Below are positions 8,824 through 26,633 of a stretch of DNA of 64,000 bases, piece after piece (the stretch's first letter is position 1; each line of letters opens with the position of its first letter). Made by a program: the position numbers and the translations under genes. The DNA lies in assembly GCF_013868135.1 (NCBI RefSeq), contig NZ_JACEMU010000015.1, positions 124,001-188,000 of the forward strand, read 5' to 3'. This DNA is from Paracoccus sp. S1E-3. Lineage in GTDB: Bacteria; Pseudomonadota; Alphaproteobacteria; Rhodobacterales; Rhodobacteraceae. A model generated the notes under the pieces. That model saw only the letters and a list, made by a program, of their open reading frames with translations. It had not been told where the DNA came from and did no database searches.

Positions 8824-9420
8824 ATGGCCCGAACCCGCGCCAGCGATTTCGCCGAAAAGCAGCAGGACCTGCTGCGCAATGCGGCAGCCGTCATTGCCGA
8901 GCAGGGCATGGACAAGGCGTCCATGTCCCAGATCGCCGAACGCGCCGGCGTCTCGAAGGCGCTGCTCTATCACTACTATCCGGGCAAGGATGCGCTGATC
9001 TTTGCGATCATCCACACCCATCTGGCCGAGGTGGACGAAGCGGTCGCGGCCGCAGATGACGCCGCGCTGCCCGACCGGGACAGGCTGCGCAAGCTGGTCG
9101 GTGCGGTGCTGGATGTCTATCGCGGCGCCGATAATGAGCATATCGTCCAGTTGAATGCCAAGCGCGCGCTGACCGAGGATCAGCAGCAGCAACTGGCCGC
9201 GATCGAGCGCCGCATCGTGCGCCGGTTCTCGCTGGTCATCGACCGCATCAATCCCGAATTGCGCAACGGACGCCCGCTGCTGATGCCGGTGACCATGTCG
9301 CTGTTCGGAATGATGAACTGGGTCTATATGTGGTTCAAGGACGGCGGCCCGATCACCCGCGAGGATTACGCCGACATCGCCACCACCCTGATCCTCGAAG
9401 GGGTTAAGGCCGTCCGCTGA
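8824..9420 (+). CDS. TetR/AcrR family regulator, probable repressor of the paa genes
   Basis: 198 residues. The N-terminal helix-turn-helix (about 25-60) contains MSQIAERAGVSKALLYHYY, a standard TetR DNA-binding unit. The remainder is helical and should bind an acyl-CoA-like ligand and dimerise. It lies 89 bases after paaK on the same strand, with an AGGAAG Shine-Dalgarno before the ATG. Position and family suggest a PaaR-like role, with phenylacetyl-CoA as the likely inducer and the palindrome at 6093-6108 as its likely site. Neither is shown by the sequence. Confidence 0.88.
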   Translation: MARTRASDFAEKQQDLLRNAAAVIAEQGMDKASMSQIAERAGVSKALLYHYYPGKDALIFAIIHTHLAEVDEAVAAADDAALPDRDRLRKLVGAVLDVYRGADNEHIVQLNAKRALTEDQQQQLAAIERRIVRRFSLVIDRINPELRNGRPLLMPVTMSLFGMMNWVYMWFKDGGPITREDYADIATTLILEGVKAVR

Positions 9421-16777: not shown

Positions 16778-16792
16778 TGGTAGGCCCGGAGG
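16778..16792. repeat. Left attachment core (att) of the genomic island
   Basis: TGGTAGGCCCGGAGG at 16778-16792 is identical to the 3' end of the tRNA gene at 26558-26572. Beyond the 15 identical bases the two copies diverge but still share TGAA-type similarity to the T-arm. This is the duplicated tRNA end left at the far side of the insertion. Confidence 0.85.
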
Positions 16793-16830
16793 ATTCTGAA
16801 ACCCTTTGAATCAAAAGCGAAAAGGGCTGG

Positions 16831-16921
16831 ATACCAACAAAAATACCAACAAATCCGTTGCATTTCGCCGGATTCGTCCGGGTGTTGCGATACCAACACA
16901 TAATCGCCGTGTTGGTATCGC
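16831..16921. repeat. Left-end ATACCAACA repeats and 13-bp inverted repeat
   Basis: ATACCAACA occurs at 16831-16839, 16843-16851 and 16890-16898, and inverted at 16910-16918. The last two sit in a perfect 13-bp inverted repeat: GCGATACCAACAC (16887-16899) with its complement at 16909-16921. The same 9-mer recurs three times at the right end. Position, just inside each att core, fits arm-type integrase binding sites. Confidence 0.75.
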
Positions 16922-17468
16922 GCAACTCACATCAGAAGCCGCACAGACGCACTTTCACGGTGCCCGTGCTCCGATCTAATGCCAGATTGCTACAGGGCGA
17001 CAAACTGCGACAGCACGCGGCAATTCGTAACTGTAGCCACGGCATGACCGGGGACCACGCGACCGACGCGACAGCACCCTTTAGGGCTGTCGCCTGTCGC
17101 GCCCCAAAGCCCCACACTGGAACAGGAAGATGGGTTCTGTTCACAGATCGCTTCCCGGCCATCATCGCCCAGGCTCAACCAGCCCAGCTTCGCTGCGGGA
17201 AATTTGAAATCGCTCGGGTTTCGCGGGTCGGTGTCCCCGCCCGACGCACCCCCACCCCCGGAAGGACCCAGAGCCAAGATGCGGCAGGTGCAATGATGTG
17301 TCCTGTTCGATCTTGACGTGTAGCCCATCAAGACGGTTGCGTGTCCGATTAAAGTATAATCGGGCGGGACGTGCTAAAGTCTCGCAAAAGTGTCCTATTT
17401 GACTTGTAGAATCATTTTTCGGACGATACCGATTTATCGGACAACCTATTAGGACGAAAGGGGCCATC
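16922..17468. other. Non-coding left end of island, with a strong stem-loop and recombinase upstream region
   Basis: No open frame here has a ribosome-binding site or a recognisable product. A stem-loop at 17068-17093 (GCGACAG with CTGTCGC, plus an inner CCC/GGG around TTTA) is the most marked structure. Nearer the recombinase gene there is a perfect 7-bp inverted repeat, CCGATTA (17345-17351) and TAATCGG (17357-17363). CCGATTTATCGG lies at about 17428-17440. The latter repeats may be operator or recombination sites of the adjacent serine recombinase. AT content rises at 17340-17460, consistent with a promoter. Confidence 0.5.
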
Positions 17469-18038
17469 ATGGGTGAGTTGATCGGGTATGCGCGGGTTTC
17501 ATCAGTCGGGCAGAAGCTGGACGTGCAGCTTGCCGCGTTACGGGTTGCGGGTGTCAGTGACGAACACCTTTACAGCGAGAAGGCGACTGGCACCAAGCGG
17601 GACGGCAGGAAGGCGCTGGATGATCTTCTGACGCGGGGCATTCGCAAGGGCGACACGCTTGTTGTGACCCGCCTTGATCGTCTGGCGCGGTCAACACGCG
17701 ACCTGCACAATATCGCCCATACGCTCACGACGAAAGGCGTCGGGCTACGGGTGCTGGAACAGGCCATAGATACCACGACGCCGGAAGGCCGCATGTTCTT
17801 TACGATGATTTCCGCCGTCGCAGAGTTCGAGACGGAAATCAGGAAGGCCCGGCAACGGGAAGGGATAGACGCAGCATTGGCCAAAGGACCGGACTCCCCG
17901 TTCAAGGGCAGGCCCGCGACCATAGACGGGGACCGGGTGAACGCCATGCGGGCGCAAGGCATGACCCCCACGGCAATTGCCAAGGCGCTGGGCCTCGCAC
18001 GGTCAAGCGTCTACCGCTACCTTGAAGGGGCAAACTGA
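17469..18038 (+). CDS. Serine recombinase, resolvase/invertase family
   Basis: 189 residues, the size of the small Tn3-resolvase/DNA-invertase class. The catalytic serine lies in GYARVSSVGQ (about 6-15). The conserved DRLARSTRDL motif is at about 75-84 and the EFETEIRKARQREGI stretch on the long E helix at about 120-134. The C-terminal DNA-binding helix-turn-helix reads MTPTAIAKALGLARSSVYRYL (shown as family-typical, about 165-185). It converges on res, with two bases between the stops. It could resolve multimers, invert a segment or act as a second mobility function. Confidence 0.93.
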   Translation: MGELIGYARVSSVGQKLDVQLAALRVAGVSDEHLYSEKATGTKRDGRKALDDLLTRGIRKGDTLVVTRLDRLARSTRDLHNIAHTLTTKGVGLRVLEQAIDTTTPEGRMFFTMISAVAEFETEIRKARQREGIDAALAKGPDSPFKGRPATIDGDRVNAMRAQGMTPTAIAKALGLARSSVYRYLEGAN

Positions 18039-18039
18039 C

Positions 18040-20649
18040 TCACTTCGCCAAGATCGCCGGTAGCTTCGCCGGAATGTCCTCCATCAGCACCAAGGCGCAT
18101 TCCACCGTCTCGCCGGTCATGGCTATCTGTAGCTGACCGGCAGGCACTGCCTGATCCCATGAGAAGTTCCGTGTCAGGAAGTCCAGCACGTCGCGCTTGT
18201 AGTCGGTGTCCGGGTTTTGCAGGTGGTCGCCCTTTGTTTCCAGCACCACGATCCGCCCAGCGCCCGCCTTGCCGCTCGTGGCGAAGATGAAGTCAGGGTA
18301 TATGCGCCCGCGCTTCCAGCCTTGCAGCCCCATGCCGTAACTGGCCTTGGCCACGTTGCGGTGCCACCATTTCACCGTGCCATCCCCGTCCAAATGCACG
18401 GCGACGTTCTGTTCCTCGCCGTTCAACTCGTTTCGGAACACAGGGGAAAACAGGCTTCGGTCAAGAGCACCGCCATGCGCGCCGGTCAGGTGTGGCGAGT
18501 TCGCCGGTTCCGTGGTCAGCATGTGGTCGGGCATCTGCCAGTTGTTCCCGTCCAGCCGCAGCCGGAATTGAATGTCACTGGCCTTCACCGCCGCGCGGAA
18601 CAAGGTTTCAGACCGGGCATCGCGTTCCGTGGTCAGGGCTACCCGTAGCCGGTCGATGATCACGCCGGATGCAGCGCCCAGCTTGGCCGCGTCGAAGCCG
18701 CGCGCTTCCAAGCCCTTCACCAGGTCCGCGATGATACCGCGCGCCACGAAAGGGTTGGGCACCAGATCGGAGATCACCCGCACCGCGTAGGTGGGGTCAA
18801 ACCGAAGGGTTTCCGCCGCAGCCGCGACAACCTCGCCCCGGAAATACTCGTCTTCCCCGGCATCGGTCAGGGCGATGCGCTGCAACTGTGCCGCTACCTG
18901 TGCAGGATTGTCTGGTATCTCGGCCACCACGCCAGCCGGGGAAAAGTCCCGCCAGTCGATTGCCGCCAGTATGTCCGTCTCGTAATCGAGGTCGCGCACC
19001 TCGCCCGTTTCCACTTTCAGCACCTTGGGCAGGTAGATTTGCAAGCTCTTGAACTTGTCCCGCCGTTCCACCTTGCGGGCCTCGCCGCCACCAGTCGCGC
19101 CACCCTCTTGCGGCACCTCGATCACCAGATCGGCCAAGCCATCGCGTTCCAGCCCGGTCTTGATCGCCTCCACCACATCGCGCGTCGCCGCGTGATGCGT
19201 GACCACATAGCATTCGTCCAGCGCCGCCACGCCGGTCTTCAGCGCGTAGGGCTGGCGCAGGATGCGCCCCACAAGCTGCGTCATGGCGGAGCGGTTGGAC
19301 GCCGCCGCCAGTGAACACAGCACATAGGCAAAGGGGCAATCCCAGCCCTCTTGCAGCGCGGCCTTGGTCACGATCACCCGCACCCGGTTGGTGGGCGACA
19401 ACAGGTCTTGGTTCTCTGGCTGATTCAGGTCGTTCTGTTCGGCGGTCTTGATCGCAACCTCGGCATCATCCAGCCCCGCCGCCAGCAGCCATTCCTTCAC
19501 ATCGTCCGCGTGAATATGCTGCCCGTCCCGCTGATCCTTGCCCGTCCGCTCGACCTGCACCAGCATAATGGGCCGGATATAGCCCAGAGCGCCCTTGTCC
19601 GCACCGTAGGCGCGCGCCTCGGCGTCCAGGGTATTCAGCCTGCCCAGCGCCGCCGTCAGCGTCCCGCGCCAATCCGTGCCTTGTCTCGGGTCAAGGTTCA
19701 ACGGCATCTTGATCATGTCTTCGGCGTGCAACTCGCGCCCTGTCACCTCCACCAAGAGGTTTGCATGGCGCGCTGGGCGGGGATTGGCACCACCCCGTGA
19801 CGCAACATCCTTGGGCGTCGCGGTCAATTCTAGAACGAAGATCGGGTTGAAACCGTAGAGCGTGTCATGCGCCAACTCGGACGTGGCCTTCTGCCCCTCA
19901 TCCATCACCACAACCGGCCTGATCTTGCGCAGCGCGTTCCCAAGCGAATCCTTCACCATCGTGAACATGCCGGTATAGCCGTCGAGATTCGGCACTGCTT
20001 CCAGTTCCCGCGCGTGCGCTGCCTGATCACCCTCGGAAGGAAAGAAGCCATGCACGTCGCCCCGATCACGGAACATGCGCAGTGCTTCTTTTGTCTGTTT
20101 GTTTGCTGACTGCAACATCAGCACCATAACACAAAGATTCGCGTCAACGTCTCGTGCGTCCAGCCGGTCGCCCTTCTCCATCACCTTCACGCGCCCCGCC
20201 GCCGCTCGGTCGAGCGCCTGCCGATAAGGGTGCTGGCGGTTCTTCAGCGCCTTCAGCGTTTGCGAATAGATCGCCTCGTTCGGCACGATCCACAGCACGA
20301 ATCCGGTGTTCTTCGCCAGATACCGGCCCATGATCCGACTGACCGCATTTACCGCCAGCCATGTCTTTCCGCCGCCCGTGGGCACCTTCAGCGTGACGTT
20401 GGGCACGGCGCGGCCCACGCCATCCTTGCGCGGGGAAAAGGGAATGGCGGCACGGGACGCGGGCAAGCGCCCAGCGCTTTTCATCGCTTCCCAAGCCTTC
20501 GCCGTGAAGTCGGGCACCTCAAGCCCAAGGTCCGGGTCCGCCGCCGCCATCGCGGCAATCTTGTCGGCCCGCGCCTTTTCGGGTTTCAGCGCTTCCAGAT
20601 AGGCATCCAGCGTGTCCAGCACCCGCGCCTGATAATCGAGCGTGCGCAT
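18040..20649 (-). CDS. res: Type III restriction endonuclease subunit Res
   Basis: 869 residues. Superfamily 2 helicase motifs are visible: TGGGKT (91-96), the Walker B variant VVMDEGQ, ELTATP (motif III) and QLVGRILRQP (motif VI). The C-terminus carries a PD-(D/E)xK nuclease core, YPDFIFA followed by VVLETKG. Type III Res needs Mod for site recognition, translocates or diffuses on DNA and cuts between sites. The ATG overlaps the mod stop (TGATG), so the pair is coupled. Motif II DEGQ instead of DEAD/DECH-type residues is slightly unusual. All motifs needed for activity appear intact. Confidence 0.95.
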   Translation of the reverse strand: MRTLDYQARVLDTLDAYLEALKPEKARADKIAAMAAADPDLGLEVPDFTAKAWEAMKSAGRLPASRAAIPFSPRKDGVGRAVPNVTLKVPTGGGKTWLAVNAVSRIMGRYLAKNTGFVLWIVPNEAIYSQTLKALKNRQHPYRQALDRAAAGRVKVMEKGDRLDARDVDANLCVMVLMLQSANKQTKEALRMFRDRGDVHGFFPSEGDQAAHARELEAVPNLDGYTGMFTMVKDSLGNALRKIRPVVVMDEGQKATSELAHDTLYGFNPIFVLELTATPKDVASRGGANPRPARHANLLVEVTGRELHAEDMIKMPLNLDPRQGTDWRGTLTAALGRLNTLDAEARAYGADKGALGYIRPIMLVQVERTGKDQRDGQHIHADDVKEWLLAAGLDDAEVAIKTAEQNDLNQPENQDLLSPTNRVRVIVTKAALQEGWDCPFAYVLCSLAAASNRSAMTQLVGRILRQPYALKTGVAALDECYVVTHHAATRDVVEAIKTGLERDGLADLVIEVPQEGGATGGGEARKVERRDKFKSLQIYLPKVLKVETGEVRDLDYETDILAAIDWRDFSPAGVVAEIPDNPAQVAAQLQRIALTDAGEDEYFRGEVVAAAAETLRFDPTYAVRVISDLVPNPFVARGIIADLVKGLEARGFDAAKLGAASGVIIDRLRVALTTERDARSETLFRAAVKASDIQFRLRLDGNNWQMPDHMLTTEPANSPHLTGAHGGALDRSLFSPVFRNELNGEEQNVAVHLDGDGTVKWWHRNVAKASYGMGLQGWKRGRIYPDFIFATSGKAGAGRIVVLETKGDHLQNPDTDYKRDVLDFLTRNFSWDQAVPAGQLQIAMTGETVECALVLMEDIPAKLPAILAK

Positions 20650-22442
20650 CAGTCTCGTTCCATCCGGTAGAGCGAATGGGGCAGGGGCACGAATTCAACC
20701 GGCAATCCTTCGGCGTCCAGCATCCGCTGGCTGACATAGCGGGCGGGGGCAAAGACGAAGTGGCGGGCGTCGGGGCGCGCCCCGGCCACCTGTCGCGCGA
20801 AACTCAGTGTCAGGGCGGCATCGGGCGATTTCAGCCAGTCGAGGTCGGGGCGATAGATCAGCCACACATGCGTGCCGTTCGCCTCGCCCACATAGGCGTT
20901 GCCCTCGTCCAGCTTGGCGGGGTCGAGCGGTTGCGATGTGGCCATGTGGAACAGCCACCCGGCCAGCGCGTCATAGGACGGCAGCGCAGCACCCGTCAGG
21001 ATACCGTCAAGGTCGATGGGGTCGCCCAGCGTGCAATAGGTGAAATCACCGCCCAGACCTTCGGCCCGTTCCTCCACCCGCTTTTCGCCGGTGACGATCA
21101 ATTCGCCGTCGTTCACCTCTTTCTTGATCCGGTCGTATTCATGGCCATGCAGGTTTTCGATCCCCTGCACCTTGTCCACCAGATCGCCCGCCCGTTCGAT
21201 TGCCCGCCAGTTCAGCCGCTCGCGCAACAGTTCCGTTTTCTGCGTTCCGGTGAAGTCATAACCATTGATCACCCGTCGCACACGTTCGGCGGTAAGCCGG
21301 TCGGCATAGTCCTCCATCTCGACCAGGATGAAGCGCCGGTCGCCCCCGTCCCGTTTGTTGGCTTCCAGAACGGCGTGGGCCGTGGTGCCGGACCCCGCGA
21401 AGGAGTCGAGGATGATGGAGTCCTTGTCGGTTGCGAGGTCCAACACCTTTTGGATCACCTGCACAGGCTTAGGAGTGGCGAAAAGGTCGCTGGCGTAGTC
21501 ATCGCCAAATACCTGTTTCAAGGTGACTTTAGCGCCCCTAGTATGGCCCGTTTCTTCCACGTTCGCCCAAAAGCTCGAAGGCGGCAGGCCTCTTTGGTCC
21601 GCAAGATAGGTGCGCCGGATAATCCGCTTCCCATCAGGGGAAAAGCGAAGTTCGCCAGTTTCAAATTTTGCTTCCATCGTTTCTCTTGACCAGCGCCACC
21701 CGTTCGGCGGGTGCTTGATCAAGTTTCCGTTCGGGCCGGGATAGTCGAATTGGAGATTGGGTCGAATGGCCGGGTTCTGGATGTTGTTCCCGTCAAACCA
21801 CGCGCCGCGTGGATCACCGTCCGGGTTGCGGAAATGGGACCGTTTGTCAGGGTCATCAAGAAAATTCGGAGTCCAGTATTCATTCTTCGAGTAGACGAAG
21901 ATCGTGTTAAAGTCCTGAGAGAACTGCGTGACGTTATTGCTACTGCTATCTGAATGTCGCCATGCGATTTCAGTAACATACCCGTCTCGCCCAAATACCT
22001 CGTCCAGTAACTGGCGCAGCAAGTGGTCTTCGTTATCGTCAATCGTGACCCAGAGGCTTCCGTTCTCGTGCAACAACTCATGCAGCAACCGCAGCCGGGG
22101 CCACATCATCGCGCACCATTTGTCATGGCGCAGGCCGTCCTCGATGCCTATGGGGTTGGCGTCCAGCCATTCCCGGATCATCGGCGCGTTAACGTTGTCG
22201 TTGTAGGCCCAGCCTTCGTTCCCGGTGTTGTAAGGCGGGTCGATGAAGATGCAGTCCACCTTGCCCGCATAGATAGGCAACAGCGCCTTCAGCGCGTGCA
22301 GGTTGTCGCCCTGCACGATCAGGTTCCCGTCCAGCCGCGCCGCGCCAGTCCCCTTGTCCGCGTGCATCTCCAGGGGCCGGAACGGCACCGCAAGGTGGTG
22401 GTTCCAAACGAATTCCTTGCCCTTGAATACCAGTTCCGTCAT
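20649..22442 (-). CDS. mod: Type III DNA methyltransferase subunit Mod
   Basis: 597 residues from the ATG at 22442 (MTELVFKGKEF); further upstream the frame is open, but that part is low-complexity and unlike the family. It is a beta-class N6-adenine methyltransferase: motif IV DPPYNTG (68-74) precedes motif I FAGSGTT (348-354). The central target-recognition region (about 150-330) has visibly lower GC than the flanks, as expected for a swapped specificity domain. It modifies one strand of its site and guides Res. The recognition sequence cannot be read from the protein. Confidence 0.95.
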   Translation of the reverse strand: MTELVFKGKEFVWNHHLAVPFRPLEMHADKGTGAARLDGNLIVQGDNLHALKALLPIYAGKVDCIFIDPPYNTGNEGWAYNDNVNAPMIREWLDANPIGIEDGLRHDKWCAMMWPRLRLLHELLHENGSLWVTIDDNEDHLLRQLLDEVFGRDGYVTEIAWRHSDSSSNNVTQFSQDFNTIFVYSKNEYWTPNFLDDPDKRSHFRNPDGDPRGAWFDGNNIQNPAIRPNLQFDYPGPNGNLIKHPPNGWRWSRETMEAKFETGELRFSPDGKRIIRRTYLADQRGLPPSSFWANVEETGHTRGAKVTLKQVFGDDYASDLFATPKPVQVIQKVLDLATDKDSIILDSFAGSGTTAHAVLEANKRDGGDRRFILVEMEDYADRLTAERVRRVINGYDFTGTQKTELLRERLNWRAIERAGDLVDKVQGIENLHGHEYDRIKKEVNDGELIVTGEKRVEERAEGLGGDFTYCTLGDPIDLDGILTGAALPSYDALAGWLFHMATSQPLDPAKLDEGNAYVGEANGTHVWLIYRPDLDWLKSPDAALTLSFARQVAGARPDARHFVFAPARYVSQRMLDAEGLPVEFVPLPHSLYRMERD

Positions 22443-22545
22443 GCACCTGCCCCTTCGATCAGTCTTTTCTTCCTTAGACCACTTCCCCCGCCCGCCCGGC
22501 AAGAGCGGAAAGGGCGGGGGAGTTCGTCCTTCGCGGGGGCTGGAC

Positions 22546-22767
22546 CTACACCAGAAGCTGCGGTTTACGCGACTCATCATATTTCTGCCAAAGCTGCTCA
22601 GCGGCTTCGATGGCCTGATAGGGAGCGCCCCGGTGATAGAGATAGGATGTCAGGGCCGCCAAGGTCCTCACATCAGGAAAGCGGCTGTCGGATTTTGCGT
22701 CATTGATGAAATCAAATTCCATCGGGTCGTCAACTTCGCAGGTTTTCAGGAAGGTTTTGAAATGCAT
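22546..22767 (-). CDS. Small protein, probable YozE/SAM-like fold
   Basis: 73 residues with an AAAGGA Shine-Dalgarno at good spacing before the ATG at 22767. Its pattern of FKTFLKTC, FDFINDAK, a central FPDVRTL and a C-terminal AAEQLWQKY resembles the YozE sterile-alpha-motif-like family (PF06855), a small all-helical domain of unknown function. It lies between the primase and mod genes on the same strand, so it may be co-expressed with either. A 9-bp stem-loop (22485-22493 with 22512-22520) separates it from mod. Alternative roles include excisionase or regulator; no helix-turn-helix is evident. Confidence 0.6.
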   Translation of the reverse strand: MHFKTFLKTCEVDDPMEFDFINDAKSDSRFPDVRTLAALTSYLYHRGAPYQAIEAAEQLWQKYDESRKPQLLV

Positions 22768-22784
22768 TCGCGGTTTCCTTTGGT

Positions 22785-24869
22785 TCAGTTCAGGAGGAAC
22801 GGCAGATCGCTGGAAACTGCCGTCTTGGGTGAAGACAGGGCGTCGAAGCCATCGCATTGGGTATAGGTGCCATTTGCAAAACGGATCAGGCTTTTGTCGC
22901 ACAAGTCGCGGAGTGCCCGTGTCGCTGCGTCGCGCCGGGACTTCGGGTTGGGGGACGCGGATACGTCGCGGCCCTCCATCATTCGGGAAACGTATTCCTC
23001 TTCGGTCAGCCTGCCGCCCGCCTGTTCCAGGATGGAAAGTGCGCCACGTTGAGCTTTCGACAGTTTCTTGTCTTTCTTCGGCGCGCCGATCAACGGATTG
23101 CATCGAGGATAGGTCAGCGCATCGCCGTCTTCATCTTGGCCGAAGTCTTCGGTGGCGATGATGAAGGCAATATCGCGTTCAATCGTTCCGTTCCGATTCT
23201 TGGTCAGCTTGCCCCGAATGATCTTGTATTCGTCGTCCCGTTTCACATGCAGGGCAACATCGAGCGCGCCGTTCAACACACTGTGCCCGCGCGGCGTGCC
23301 GCTTTCCGATTTGGTGTCGTGATGGATCAGGACAACGGCTGCGCCCCAGCGGGCCAGCGCCCGCGCCACCGCGACCACACGGCCCATTGCCTCGGCGCTG
23401 TTTTCTTCCAGGCCGGGGAACGCCATTGCCAGCGTGTCGATAAATATCAGTGCGGGGCTTTCCGCCTTCACCGCCTCTTTCAGCGCCAGAAAATCGGGCG
23501 ACTCTTTGATCAGCAGATTTGAGACGCCTTCCACCAGTTTGAACGCATCCGCGCCGCCGTGTGCCTTCCGCAGCGCCTTCACCCGACCACGCATCCCGTG
23601 CGAGTCTTCGGACGCGACATAGAACACGCCGCCCGCTTTCGTGCGCATCTGGAAGGCTTCCTGCCCCTGCGCCACCATATAGCCTAGGAACGGGGCGATG
23701 AGGGATTTACCGGCACCGGGCGCGCCGAAGATACAAGCAACGTCCTTTTCCGCCAGCAACCCTTTAATCAGGTATTTCCGCGCGGATGACGCCTCGCATT
23801 CATCCGGCGTGAGGAAGGTCAGCGTCGACGGTTTCGGCTTAGGCCCGTCGAACAGCGAACGCGAATCGTCGTTCAGATCGTCAAAGTCATCATCGGAAAC
23901 CGGCACCCACTCGAAACCGCATTCAATCGCGATCCTGAACAGCGTCCCAATCCCGATCCCGCCGCGCCTGAACGATTTCCATGTCCTGCGCTGGTCTCGC
24001 TCATTGAATTTCACAGATTGGCGCGACCAGTGCGACCAGAGGTCGAAGCCCTCATCACTTCCAGCGAATTCAGCGTGAAGCGCCATCCCGATTTCGCGCC
24101 ATGTGTCGCGGTAATCCGCATCGCTGATGCAGGCCAGCGCGCGACGGATTTCGTCGCGGTCAGCCGGTTCCCGGAGCAGGTCGGAAAGATCAGTGTCCGA
24201 TTTTACCGGCTTGGGCTTCGGCCCTATCGAGGTCAGCCCGGTCACGCGGTCAAGCGGCTGCCCTTCCACCAGGAAGGATTCTGCTGGGTGCGCTGCCGTG
24301 TTGCCGAAGTAATAGGACTGCGAGTTGGTGAATGATTCGGCTGCGAGAATACCACCCAGAGCGCCGTTCAGCTTGGCGCAAAGGGCTTCCCGTTCAGCCG
24401 GTGCCACCTGCCGCGCGAGAGGTGCAAGGACGCGCCAACGGGGCGCTTCTGCTGTATGGCTGGGCGTGGTGTAGATCAGCGCCGCGACACCTGCCCGGCT
24501 CAACTGGTCCTTGGCTTCCTGCGGCGATACAGCACCTGCATCATAGTCGCCTTCGATGCCGCTCACGCTCAACAGGTTTGCATCGTGTCGCAGGCTGTTG
24601 CCCTTTTCGGTGCGCGCATCCCCAAAGGTGCCCAGCTTCAACAGCGGCAGCGCTGCCTTGTTAGGCGCGGTTGTGGCGGTCAGTCGTTGTTGAAGCTGAC
24701 GCAGGCTGAGGCATTCGGCTTCGATCCGTTGCGCCTTCACATCTCGGAAGATGGAAACGACTATTGGCAGGTCGCAGCCTTGTTTTGCGGGAATAGAGCC
24801 AAGCAGGTCGCTCAGATCAGTGTCGATTTGGCCTTGATCCCGACCATGGGTATCATTATATTCTGACAT
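22785..24869 (-). CDS. Satellite/plasmid-type primase-helicase (AEP-like, PriCT-2, RepA-like ATPase)
   Basis: 694 residues from ATG 24869; a GTG at 24953 would add 28 residues, and neither start has a strong ribosome-binding site. An N-terminal primase-like region includes SGIEGDYDAG and YTTPSHTAEAPRWRVL (about 103-148). A PriCT-2 domain follows (about 237-315, with RDTWREIGMALH and KSFRRGG). The C-terminal AAA_25/RepA-type ATPase has Walker A GAPGAGKS (382-389), Walker B ALIFIDTLAM and the VVLIHHDTK sensor. It should replicate the excised element. DTDLSDLL occurs twice (residues 16-23 and 225-232), the second just before PriCT-2. A short winged-helix-like tail follows. Confidence 0.85.
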   Translation of the reverse strand: MSEYNDTHGRDQGQIDTDLSDLLGSIPAKQGCDLPIVVSIFRDVKAQRIEAECLSLRQLQQRLTATTAPNKAALPLLKLGTFGDARTEKGNSLRHDANLLSVSGIEGDYDAGAVSPQEAKDQLSRAGVAALIYTTPSHTAEAPRWRVLAPLARQVAPAEREALCAKLNGALGGILAAESFTNSQSYYFGNTAAHPAESFLVEGQPLDRVTGLTSIGPKPKPVKSDTDLSDLLREPADRDEIRRALACISDADYRDTWREIGMALHAEFAGSDEGFDLWSHWSRQSVKFNERDQRRTWKSFRRGGIGIGTLFRIAIECGFEWVPVSDDDFDDLNDDSRSLFDGPKPKPSTLTFLTPDECEASSARKYLIKGLLAEKDVACIFGAPGAGKSLIAPFLGYMVAQGQEAFQMRTKAGGVFYVASEDSHGMRGRVKALRKAHGGADAFKLVEGVSNLLIKESPDFLALKEAVKAESPALIFIDTLAMAFPGLEENSAEAMGRVVAVARALARWGAAVVLIHHDTKSESGTPRGHSVLNGALDVALHVKRDDEYKIIRGKLTKNRNGTIERDIAFIIATEDFGQDEDGDALTYPRCNPLIGAPKKDKKLSKAQRGALSILEQAGGRLTEEEYVSRMMEGRDVSASPNPKSRRDAATRALRDLCDKSLIRFANGTYTQCDGFDALSSPKTAVSSDLPFLLN

Positions 24870-25028
24870 ATAAACATCTTTTAAAGGGTCATCGGGTTGC
24901 CGCCCGGTGGCCCTATTCGTTTGCGCACCATACGCAGAATGAGATAAAGCCACGCTGCCAATATAGCGACAGCGTGGATGTTAATCAAGTTGCTGTTATA
25001 CAACAATAATTTCACGTGCGGCGTGAAA

Positions 25029-25163
25029 CTACAGCCTTAGAAGGTCAGATAAGTCAGTAGTTGAATATTTTCCGGCATTCTCATAGCCATTCAGCTTGTC
25101 GGACCGCCGATTAATCAGTTTGCCGCCCCCTTTGAAGGTCTCTCCTGACAAGCCCTTGGCCGA
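25029..25163 (-). other. In-frame 44-codon extension after the integrase stop, ending in TTDLSDLLRL
   Basis: Reading on past the TAA of the integrase (25164-25166) in the same frame gives 44 sense codons before TAG at 25029-25031. The peptide contains ETFKGGGKLINRRSDKLNGY and ends TTDLSDLLRL, echoing the DTDLTDLLGG integrase terminus. It has no ATG; a TTG at codon 5 is the only plausible start. It may be a decayed C-terminal extension, a readthrough product or a coding remnant. Between 24870 and 25028 there is AT-richer sequence that should contain the primase promoter. Confidence 0.4.
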
Positions 25164-26390
25164 TTACCCGCCAAGCAAATCCGTTAAATCGGTATCGGGA
25201 TTCATTTGTTTCACCGGCTGGCTTTTCGGCTTAGTCTCTTCGTGCCGGTTCATAAGGTCGGAATACCAGTTCATCATCTGCCGCCGTTCCTCAAGATAGA
25301 GTGCCGCGTTATAGGCGCTGCGAACCTCGTTTGCCGGAACGTGGGCAAGCTGCCGCTCAATGGCGTCGGCGCGCCACAGCCCGGACTCGTTCAGGATGGT
25401 CGACGCGGTGCTACGGAAACCGTGAACCGATGCACGGCTGTGATACCCCATCCGGTAAAGCCCATAGATAAGCGTGTTCTCGGAAACCGGCTTGCGATCC
25501 GACTGGCCTGGCAGAACGAAAGGGGTGCCGCGCGACAGGTCTTGCAGTTCCGAAAACATCGCCTGCACCTGAGGGGACAGAGGGACAACGTGTTCTTTCC
25601 GCATCTTCATTTTCCCGGCTGGGATGCGCCATGTGTCACCGTCGATCTCATCCCATGTCGCCAACCGCAGTTCTGAGGTGCGCACGAATGTATGGGCGAT
25701 GACCTTCAAACCCAGCGCCGTTGCCCGGTCCCCGCTATAAGTGGCGAGGGCGGCAAAAAAGTCGTGCAGCTGATCTTCCCGTAGCGCGGCGCGGTGCTTC
25801 TGGCGTGGCGCCGACTTCATCGCCCCGGCCAGCGGCGCGGCAGGGTCAGAGGAAGCCCAGCCATTCGCCACGGAAAAGCGGAAGATCGCACTCATGGTCT
25901 GACGCAGCCGCTTGGCCATTTCGAGGGCGTTGCGGTTTTCCACCTCACGCAACAGCGCCAGCACCTCGGCAGGGGTGACGGCTGCGACGTCCTTCGCGCC
26001 GATCTTCGGGAACACATCCGCGTCAAGCCGTGCCCAGATGCGCGCAGCGTAGCCGCTGACCCATTGGGCTTCACGGGCGCGATACCATTCGCGGGCGGCG
26101 TCCTTGAAGGTCTGCGCGGGCAGAGCGGCTTGTCCTTCCTTCAAGGCAGGATCGGTCCCGGTAGCCAGCTTGTCTTTCAGTTCGGCGGCTCTTAGGCGGG
26201 CCGTGGCAAGCGAAACATCGGGGTATGATCCGAAGGCGGCGGTGCGCTGTTTCCCTTCATAGCGATAATTCATGCGCCACAGCTTTGAGCCGCCTGGCGT
26301 CACTTGCAGGAACAGCCCGCGCGCGTCCGATAGCTTTTGAACCTTCTCGGCAGGCCTAGCGGCGCGGCATTGGGCATCTGTCAGGGGCAT
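25164..26390 (-). CDS. int: P4-type tyrosine integrase
   Basis: 408 residues with an N-terminal DUF4102 arm-binding domain (about 1-90, starting MPLTDAQCRAARPAEK), a SAM-like core-binding domain (about 95-180) and a catalytic domain. The catalytic residues are Arg237 in FVRTSEL, His323 and Arg326 in HGFR, His350 in QLAHV and Tyr360 in SAYN. The set is complete. It lies 168 bases from the tRNA, with its start facing the tRNA and the arm-type repeats in between. The C-terminus ends NPDTDLTDLLGG, a motif shared with the island primase. It catalyses integration at the tRNA 3' end. Confidence 0.95.
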   Translation of the reverse strand: MPLTDAQCRAARPAEKVQKLSDARGLFLQVTPGGSKLWRMNYRYEGKQRTAAFGSYPDVSLATARLRAAELKDKLATGTDPALKEGQAALPAQTFKDAAREWYRAREAQWVSGYAARIWARLDADVFPKIGAKDVAAVTPAEVLALLREVENRNALEMAKRLRQTMSAIFRFSVANGWASSDPAAPLAGAMKSAPRQKHRAALREDQLHDFFAALATYSGDRATALGLKVIAHTFVRTSELRLATWDEIDGDTWRIPAGKMKMRKEHVVPLSPQVQAMFSELQDLSRGTPFVLPGQSDRKPVSENTLIYGLYRMGYHSRASVHGFRSTASTILNESGLWRADAIERQLAHVPANEVRSAYNAALYLEERRQMMNWYSDLMNRHEETKPKSQPVKQMNPDTDLTDLLGG

Positions 26391-26406
26391 TCCAGCGAAT
26401 CCGATT

Positions 26407-26447
26407 TGTTGGTATCGCCGCCATCATACCAACAAACGATACCAACA
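26407..26447. repeat. Right-end ATACCAACA repeats
   Basis: The 9-mer occurs inverted at 26407-26415 and direct at 26426-26434 and 26439-26447. The first two form a 9-bp inverted repeat around a 10-base spacer, mirroring the pair at the left end. They lie immediately upstream of the integrase start and could also let integrase regulate its own promoter. Confidence 0.75.
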
Positions 26448-26557
26448 AAAGATGAGACGCATAGAGAAGCATCTGGACACATGAAGACTGTAGTCGAGCT
26501 TAATTAATTGATTTCAAATTAATTTCGTTCAATCTGAGACGAATGGAGACAAAATTT

Positions 26558-26572
26558 TGGTAGGCCCGGAGG
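26558..26572. repeat. Right attachment core (att), within tRNA 3' end
   Basis: TGGTAGGCCCGGAGG, covering the encoded CCA, the discriminator base, the 3' acceptor strand and the first bases of the T-arm. It is identical to 16778-16792 and keeps the tRNA intact on this side. Confidence 0.85.
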
Positions 26573-26633
26573 GACTTGAACCCCCAACCAAGGCGTTATG
26601 AGCGCCCTGCTCTGACCATTGAGCTACAGGCCC
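26558..26633 (-). tRNA. tRNA with anticodon CAU, probably Ile2 (lysidine) type
   Basis: 76 nt including encoded CCA. A full cloverleaf can be drawn: acceptor GGGCCTG with CGGGCCT (two G-U pairs), D-stem GCTC/GAGC, anticodon loop CTCATAA with CAU at 26598-26600, 5-base variable loop and T-loop TTCAAGT. The short D-loop (AATGGTCA) and the general pattern resemble tRNA-Ile2, whose C34 is changed to lysidine, more than elongator tRNA-Met; this choice is not certain. Its 3' end is the integration site of the island. Confidence 0.9.

Follow-up and report, generated by a model that had tools for sequence, protein, structure and literature searches.

Organisation and integration site of the island

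The subject of this study is a ~9.8-kb island at positions 16778-26572 of a 64,000-nt stretch of the Paracoccus sp. S1E-3 genome (contig NZ_JACEMU010000015.1, positions 124,001 to 188,000; hereafter the window, to which positions refer unless another locus is named). The island carries a type III restriction-modification (R-M) system together with an integrase and a primase-helicase, and below we interpret it as probably being a phage satellite. It is bounded by an exact 15-bp direct repeat, TGGTAGGCCCGGAGG, at 16778-16792 and 26558-26572, and the window's single tRNA gene supplies the right copy, which is its 3' end including the CCA; the repeat extends to 27 nt if mismatches are allowed (81%). 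Related genomes and loci are referred to by G and L numbers. The features of the island are as follows.

16778..16792, plus strand: core of the left attachment site (attL), a 15-bp copy of the tRNA 3' end (exact repeat; the same 15-mer bounds the G083 element)
16830..16918, both strands: left integrase-arm-like sites ATACCAACA at 16831(+), 16843(+), 16890(+) and 16910(-) (repeat search)
17058..17101, plus strand: origin-like hairpin with surrounding GCGACA/TGTCGC repeats (DNA fold; putative origin)
17193..17278, plus strand: phage-type cohesive-end (cos) site, with the 12-nt cohesive-end sequence GGTCGGTGTCCC at 17226-17237 (five-phage RcD model; RcCWillis alignment)
17469..18038, plus strand: serine recombinase of the resolvase/invertase family, 189 aa (Pfam PF00239 and PF02796)
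18040..20649, minus strand: type III Res, 869 aa (PADLOC REase_III, 1.5e-175; motifs present)
20649..22442, minus strand: type III Mod, 597 aa (PADLOC MTase_III, 1e-209; DPPY and FAGSG)
22546..22767, minus strand: YozE_SAM_like small protein, 73 aa (Pfam 1.5e-7; phrog_8600 3.7e-8)
22785..24884, minus strand: primase-helicase with PriCT_2 and RepA-like AAA_25 domains (Pfam; nearest kin 69-74% identical)
25164..26390, minus strand: tyrosine integrase, 408 aa (Pfam Arm-DNA-bind_3, Phage_int_M, Phage_integrase)
26407..26447, both strands: right integrase-arm-like sites ATACCAACA at 26407(-), 26426(+) and 26439(+) (repeat search)
26558..26633, minus strand: tRNA gene labelled tRNA-Met (anticodon cat), with the core of the right attachment site (attR) at 26558-26572 (ARAGORN, Rfam RF00005)

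The occupancy of this site was compared within a sample of 125 genomes of the genus, 124 of which have a match to the flanking PurM gene and 118 to the flanking S4 gene, and PurM-side stretches were taken from 18 of them. An empty site, with S4, the tRNA gene and PurM adjoining without an insert, was found in G037, G066 and G008; most of the others of the 18 have S4 elsewhere and are hence uninformative on occupancy. When joined, the flanks of the island align across the junction in G037 and G008 (77% over 292 bp and 74% over 287 bp, respectively), and match G066 in two separate pieces only (87% over 132 bp and 72% over 156 bp). In the nearest relative by PurM (G119, 95%), a different, broken 5.2-kb insert is bounded by the same 15-bp core, while in G054 the PurM-side tRNA gene is occupied by a capsid-forming satellite (L064) with a 15-bp repeat. 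The G083 element lies in a tRNA-Met gene with the same 15-bp core, but PurM is not adjacent there. A candidate island between the tRNA gene and S4 in G016 was rejected, the genes there being ordinary ones as judged by eye from their translations, and the locus in G105 is not assessable owing to a contig break.

The repeat ATACCAACA occurs seven times in the 64 kb, every copy lying at the ends of the island, and the same four-plus-three layout is found in G083, around an 84%-identical integrase, with a three-plus-three layout in the Jannaschia element described below. These repeats fit putative integrase arm sites. The data show an integrated element with attL, attR and arm-like repeats.

Proteins of the island were scanned with Pfam and NCBIfam (six proteins) and PHROGs (four), and the R-M genes also with PADLOC. 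All six genes are uninterrupted. Res retains GGGKT, DEGQ, QLVGRILR and a PD...ETK motif; these and the Mod motifs we take to be those of a helicase with a PD-(D/E)xK domain and of an N6 methyltransferase, respectively, the combination that defines a type III R-M system. A 72-aa gene at a like place in the G083 element matches phrog_8600 weakly (E 0.003). None of the scanned proteins matched head, tail or conjugation families, and no capsid, portal, terminase or connector gene of the island's own was matched, while such genes are present in its kin.

An initial annotation made from the window alone had described identical 15-bp tRNA-end copies around a block comprising an integrase, a primase-helicase, a type III R-M system, a small SAM-like gene and a serine recombinase, with no recognisable excisionase, and had proposed a search for empty sites in relatives. 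The exact repeat and the tRNA gene bear out the first point and the Pfam and PADLOC matches the second, no excisionase was recognised in the island, and the empty sites exist; the 15-bp core, whose absence from intact tRNA loci that annotation had named as contrary evidence, is present in intact tRNA genes of relatives. Its statement that virion, packaging and conjugation genes are lacking holds for the scanned proteins, but it overlooked a packaging site, as it did the other noncoding features, namely the origin-like hairpin and the integrase-arm-like repeats.

A phage-type cos site near the left end

The noncoding stretch at 16793-17468 matches positions 2594-2672 of the phage RcCWillis (80% over 79 bp, E 2e-8), likewise noncoding there, and RcCWillis is the sole phage record matching at E <= 0.1. 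RcCWillis belongs to cluster RcD (PubMed Central, PMC9753621), and the genome ends of RcD phages carry 12-base 5' overhangs, determined from reads stopping at fixed bases (Rapala et al., PMC8601537). When the RcCWillis stretch was compared with phages, 23 records matched, and in 10 of these (RcMrWorf, RcGingersnap, RcMcDreamy, RcIroh, RcSalem, RcMaeve, RcWata, RcPescado, RcPutin and RcRios) the match stops at base 1 of the record, always at the same query base. These ten include all eight RcD phages of the published table; the remaining records, RcCWillis included, start elsewhere. Joining the ends of the RcRios record restores the block, and the RcMrWorf record has the 12 bases at both of its ends. 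In the orientation of the window, the 12 bases of RcRios and RcMrWorf read GGTCGGCGTCCC, and those of the window match them at 11 of 12 positions and are identical to the aligned RcCWillis bases; the plus-strand copy in G083 is identical to the RcRios/RcMrWorf bases.

A model built from RcMcLean, RcPeripeteia, RcWhiteOak, RcRios and RcCWillis finds 17193-17278 at E 4.6e-11, the next best match in the window having E 2.3 and the best in the reversed window 1.4, and a version lacking RcCWillis, run against about 177 sequences, still finds the site at 2.2e-6. The Infernal model R1, whose training sequences include those of the window and its sisters, gives the window site E 1.9e-23; over the 125 genomes, searched with stricter filters, it has strong matches in G000 (the window's own genome), G059, G083, G046 and G107. 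Its three weak matches, with E from 1.5e-4 to 5.9e-4, lie in the G123 element and in head-bearing elements of G038 and G059. The site folds no better than shuffles (z-scores 0.0 to 1.0). These alignments show homology between this site of the window and the genome ends of phages of the RcD cluster.

Pattern searches that demand exact matches proved too inflexible for this site. A strict two-block pattern found nothing in viral contigs and only the window's own genome among 394 family genomes, and a loose 18-base core pattern yielded 19 stretches in viral contigs; none of the 19 had a tblastn match (E <= 1e-5) to 13 satellite and phage proteins, and they look like chance matches.

The hairpin at 17058-17101, close to the cos site, has a DNA fold z-score of -3.9, with none of 200 shuffles as stable, and aligns in G083. 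A similar hairpin core occurs in 27 of 103 segments between primase and TerS in head-bearing kin, as against 48 of 2060 random pieces.

Kinship with capsid-forming satellites

Among the nearest relatives of the primase are those encoded by tRNA-integrated alphaproteobacterial elements of ~12 kb, which also have genes for TerS, TerL, portal, protease-capsid, head-tail adaptor (connector) and decoration proteins. In the primase tree, the window joins the Jannaschia locus L112 and two head-bearing loci with a Shimodaira-Hasegawa-like approximate likelihood ratio (SH-aLRT) support of 100; the primase and its counterparts in capsid-forming satellites thus have a common origin. Among primase relatives, TerL is present in 39 of 62 genome loci and 74 of 79 viral-contig loci, and at least four of the six genes just named in 32/62 and 46/79, respectively, the viral contigs having been preselected for viral genes and many loci being incomplete at their ends; none of the six was found in 23 of the 62 genome loci. 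Eight elements besides those of the window and G083 have matched tRNA repeats and measure 11.2-12.7 kb, six being head-bearing and two (L051 and L073) of R-M types. At locus L068, no tail gene was found among the nine scanned of 13 called genes; Pfam recognised nothing in two of the nine, and one matched nothing in any scan.

The tree comprises 123 rows, 24 of them labelled as head-less (neither TerL nor portal found in the locus). The head label changes 18 times, at least 16 of these changes being forced by well-supported branches, compared with a mean of 22.2 in shuffles (4 of 500 shuffles are as low as observed); some head-less rows are truncated contigs or have other head families, such that 18 is an upper view. 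This pattern suggests that lineages have gained or lost their head genes repeatedly. The phage-type cos, serine recombinase and R-M genes of the island occupy the place of the kin's head module, a change that may have gone in either direction. Two further primase relatives, L158 (12695-15758) and L248 (4675-7772), have Phage_capsid and Phage_portal families instead, with an S78 protease also in L158, which suggests exchange of head modules within the satellite stock.

A side observation concerns a short peptide. The gap between the integrase and primase genes holds an open stretch of ~40 codons ending in STTDLSDLLRL, and the peptide TDL[ST]DLL occurs four times on the minus strand of the island: at the C-terminus of the integrase (25173-25193), in the open stretch (25038-25058) and twice within the primase (24801-24821 and 24174-24194). 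A looser DLL-type motif lies in the first 60 residues of 18/129 primases, 28/100 TerS, 0/92 TerL, 0/69 portal and 0/66 capsid proteins, with gene starts taken from our own gene caller. It may be a shared docking motif.

A satellite-type cos and paired inverted sites

The head-bearing satellites have a homologous block of their own between primase and TerS. The anchor GGGTCC[TC][TC]C occurs in 87 of 103 unique primase-TerS segments, as against 48 of 2060 random 500-bp pieces, and when 71 such blocks were built into a model, 145 of 176 loci matched it at E < 1e-3, many of the 145 having supplied blocks to that model. The viral contig L252 (12,224 bp), which was not used to train the model, starts shortly ahead of TerS and stops shortly past the primase, and rejoining its ends gives a satellite block with about 8 nt missing (junction E 8.4e-9); these ends are what a cos-cut linear genome would give, and in this contig the block thus behaves like a cos.

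Three of the elements with a phage-type cos pair it with a satellite-type cos-like site that is inverted relative to it and separated from it by 26-30 bp (satellite and phage models):

G083, L063: 5203-5278(-) and 5308-5373(+)
Jannaschia, L112: 12316-12392(-) and 12420-12495(+)
G059, L089 (a remnant): 9111-9187(-) and 9213-9289(+)

The satellite model finds the minus-strand copies at 4.5e-8 (G083), 4.1e-11 (Jannaschia) and 3.8e-7 (G059) but gives the plus-strand copies only weak scores, 2.3e-4 at best (8.5e-4 in the window). With the phage model, the plus-strand copies of G083, Jannaschia and G059 are found at 4e-8, 4.6e-7 and 2.3e-8, respectively, and their minus-strand copies are not found at E <= 0.05. 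Only the plus-strand, phage-type copy was detected in the window. The paired sites suggest that the sister elements could be packaged by either a phage or a satellite.

Sister elements and exchangeable cargo

The Jannaschia pohangensis locus L112 lies at a tRNA-Met gene with a 23-bp repeat, spans ~10.5 kb and has the same backbone of integrase, primase and serine recombinase. In blastn comparisons with the window, the integrase is 82% identical over 1425 bp, the primase 78% over 1702 bp, the serine recombinase 80% over 710 bp and the left end 83% over 128 bp, while the cargo comprises a type II methyltransferase (N6/N4), an Mrr_cat protein and HNH genes. By these alignments, L112 is the same element as the window island, in a different genus and with another R-M system. 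The G083 element (L063), with the same 15-bp core and an 84%-identical integrase, carries a type ISP/IIG R-M enzyme. Two further loci have the same kind of cos: L088 of G046, a mosaic locus whose serine recombinase is 93% identical to that of the window, carries EcoRII and its C5 methyltransferase, and L087 of G107, a 5-kb contig with a 90%-identical serine recombinase, carries a type II methyltransferase and a BsuBI/PstI-type enzyme. In all, five of the six loci with a phage-type cos in the genus or Jannaschia, the window included, have an R-M system, each a different one, and the sixth is the G059 remnant. A Sphingomonas locus (L118) also matches the phage-type model (1.6e-7); no R-M gene was recognised there, its genes not having been scanned against families.

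The initial annotation had regarded the R-M system as cargo of a discrete element, and the finding of the backbone with a different R-M system in Jannaschia, and of a close integrase with a third type in G083, bears this out. Its label "satellite-like" rested on integrase and primase; stronger evidence comes from the cos-type site and the kinship of the primase to those of capsid-forming satellites, both of which had been overlooked.

R-M cargo was also observed at L051 and L073, both at tRNA-Asn genes, which have 36-40 bp tRNA repeats, EcoRII-type R-M genes and a satellite-type cos-like block (E about 1e-13), and in which family models found no head gene. L073 also has a Vsr-family gene (scanned in that locus) and a DUF3800 gene. 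The 314-aa DUF3800 protein, encoded at L063 12365-13309 and L073 14727-15671, is a recurrent cargo beside R-M genes, with different integrases.

A proposed head-less satellite packaged by a helper phage

In our view the island is probably a phage satellite that has no head genes but carries a cos, with the type III R-M system as its exchangeable cargo and a helper phage packaging it in trans. Under this proposal, the integrase would excise the island as a ~9.8-kb circle, and the primase-helicase would replicate it from the hairpin and repeat region beside the cos. An RcD-like phage infecting the cell would provide the terminase that cuts the resulting concatemer at 17226-17237 and packages it, the packaged island would re-enter a tRNA gene of a new cell, and the R-M system would protect host and satellite from other phages. 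An invertible segment acted on by the serine recombinase was also considered. A possible helper type adjoins the same tRNA locus in G095, where a prophage-like stretch (L065) with head and tail genes, its far end not resolved, lies next to the PurM-side tRNA-Met gene and encodes a TerL 49% identical to that of RcCWillis.

Several observations weigh against this proposal. Excision, replication, packaging and transduction are all deduced from sequence. No AlpA- or Xis-like gene, TerS or capsid-size gene was recognised in the island, and the absence from the window of the sisters' satellite-type cos could reflect decay. The RcCWillis record does not open at the block, so that its end is placed by analogy with RcD kin, and its host is Rhodobacter capsulatus. 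The window's own genome has no TerL match of either type (cut-offs 1e-100 in the RcD-type and 1e-80 in the satellite-type search), and a helper would thus have to infect; a single RcD-like terminase was found in the 125 genomes, in G095, where model R1 detected no phage-type cos. The support from L252 comes from a single contig picked by eye, and an automatic end test over 176 loci flagged only L242. Finally, a monomer of 9.8 kb is much smaller than the genomes of the would-be helpers (~68 kb), and multimers or small heads would be needed. Seven copies (7 x 9,780 bp = 68,460 bp) come close to RcCWillis (68,804 bp), a fit that we treat as coincidence because the sister elements (12.9 and about 10.5 kb) give no whole numbers.

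Some of these points would suit a decaying, now immobile satellite relic retained only for its R-M system, given the missing excisionase, the single cos-like copy where sisters have two, and the lack of a helper terminase match in the same genome; we judge this unlikely, since the six genes are uninterrupted, the arm-like sites and core are complete, and the backbone is common to two genera with different cargo. Less probable still is that the packager is a capsid-forming satellite, making the island a satellite of a satellite, an idea compatible with the phage-satellite proposal itself. Retention of a satellite-type copy beside the phage-type one in G083, Jannaschia and the G059 remnant speaks for it, as do satellite TerL matches (E <= 1e-80) in 26 of the 125 genomes, a mix of close satellite TerL and more distant gpA-type terminases, but the window shows the phage-type copy only (8.5e-4 with the head model, 4.6e-11 with the phage model).

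The block at 17193-17278 might instead be part of a replication origin, or a regulator, common through related phage and satellite primases. In RcD phages, as in head-bearing satellites, the primase gene has the block on its 3' side, and in RcCWillis the block adjoins that gene but is 22 kb away from terS; an origin was indeed our first idea; it was dropped because the RcD record starts and the published overhangs put the genome end inside the block. Ten RcD records begin in it, in a cluster with 12-base 5' overhangs (PMC8601537), one head-bearing satellite contig ends inside its own version, the block lies between primase and TerS in head-bearing satellites, and in the window it stands away from the primase, such that we regard an origin or regulator as very unlikely. 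Many tRNA-integrated elements with integrases move by conjugation, and the island could accordingly be an integrative mobilizable element; the presence of a phage-type cos and the lack of any relaxase or conjugation family match among the proteins scanned (oriT was not searched for) leave this with hardly any credence.

More tentatively, and with a good deal of doubt, we envisage a family of head-less R-M satellites with exchangeable packaging tickets, in which members with both cos types (G083, Jannaschia) could travel in the heads of phages or of fellow satellites, and head-bearing and passenger forms would interconvert by swapping a whole head module for a phage cos and R-M cassette.

Significance and comparison with known systems

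The phage-type cos offers a possible route by which R-M defence islands may move between Alphaproteobacteria inside phage particles, and through the common 12-nt cohesive-end sequence a phage family that can be named is linked with a defence island; the analysis also reveals that Alphaproteobacteria have many capsid-forming satellites. Satellites that lack heads and carry defence cargo (phage-inducible chromosomal minimalist islands, PICMIs), capsid-forming phage-inducible chromosomal islands (cf-PICIs) and cos-type satellites are already known. New, as far as the open PMC subset could be searched, are the alphaproteobacterial setting, the sharing of a cohesive-end sequence with phages of a named family, the presence in five of six elements of R-M systems that differ in kind, and the pairing of two types of cos-like site in inverted orientation; for satellites with these features in Rhodobacter or Paracoccus, that subset, judged mostly from titles and abstract starts, yielded nothing.

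The gene set of the primase kin is, leaving aside the cf-PICI HNH gene, of the kind given for cf-PICIs in PMC10690885, and the island, like cf-PICIs, is a site-specific element with an integrase and a replication gene; unlike them, it lacks head and packaging genes, and what it carries is R-M genes and a phage-type cos. The PICMIs known from Vibrionaceae are, according to PMC10803314, similarly small and head-less, with an integrase, a primase and defence cargo including R-M types I and II, and obtain particles from a helper. However, PICMIs have alpA, adjoin fis and have a primase of family DUF3987/DUF5906 in their model, and their packaging, as concatemers, appears headful-like, with no cos or pac identified, whereas the island has a cos-type site, lies at a tRNA gene and gave no AlpA match in its scanned proteins.

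With P4-like satellites and cos-type PICIs, the island shares a P4-type integrase arm domain, a primase-helicase and a cos shared with a phage. The marker genes of P4 are psu, delta and sid; these had no match in the scanned island proteins, nor did P4 or PICI packaging-redirection proteins, the presence of each model in the libraries not having been checked. P4 DNA is packaged by the P2 terminase at cos sites (PMC10690885), whereas the island's cos is common, as shared sequence, to RcD phages and not P2, and its helper would be a phage of the Casjensviridae. RcCWillis and the other RcD phages of that family have the same cos-type site, with the primase gene adjoining it, but are phages of ~66-69 kb with head and tail genes, of which the island has the site only.

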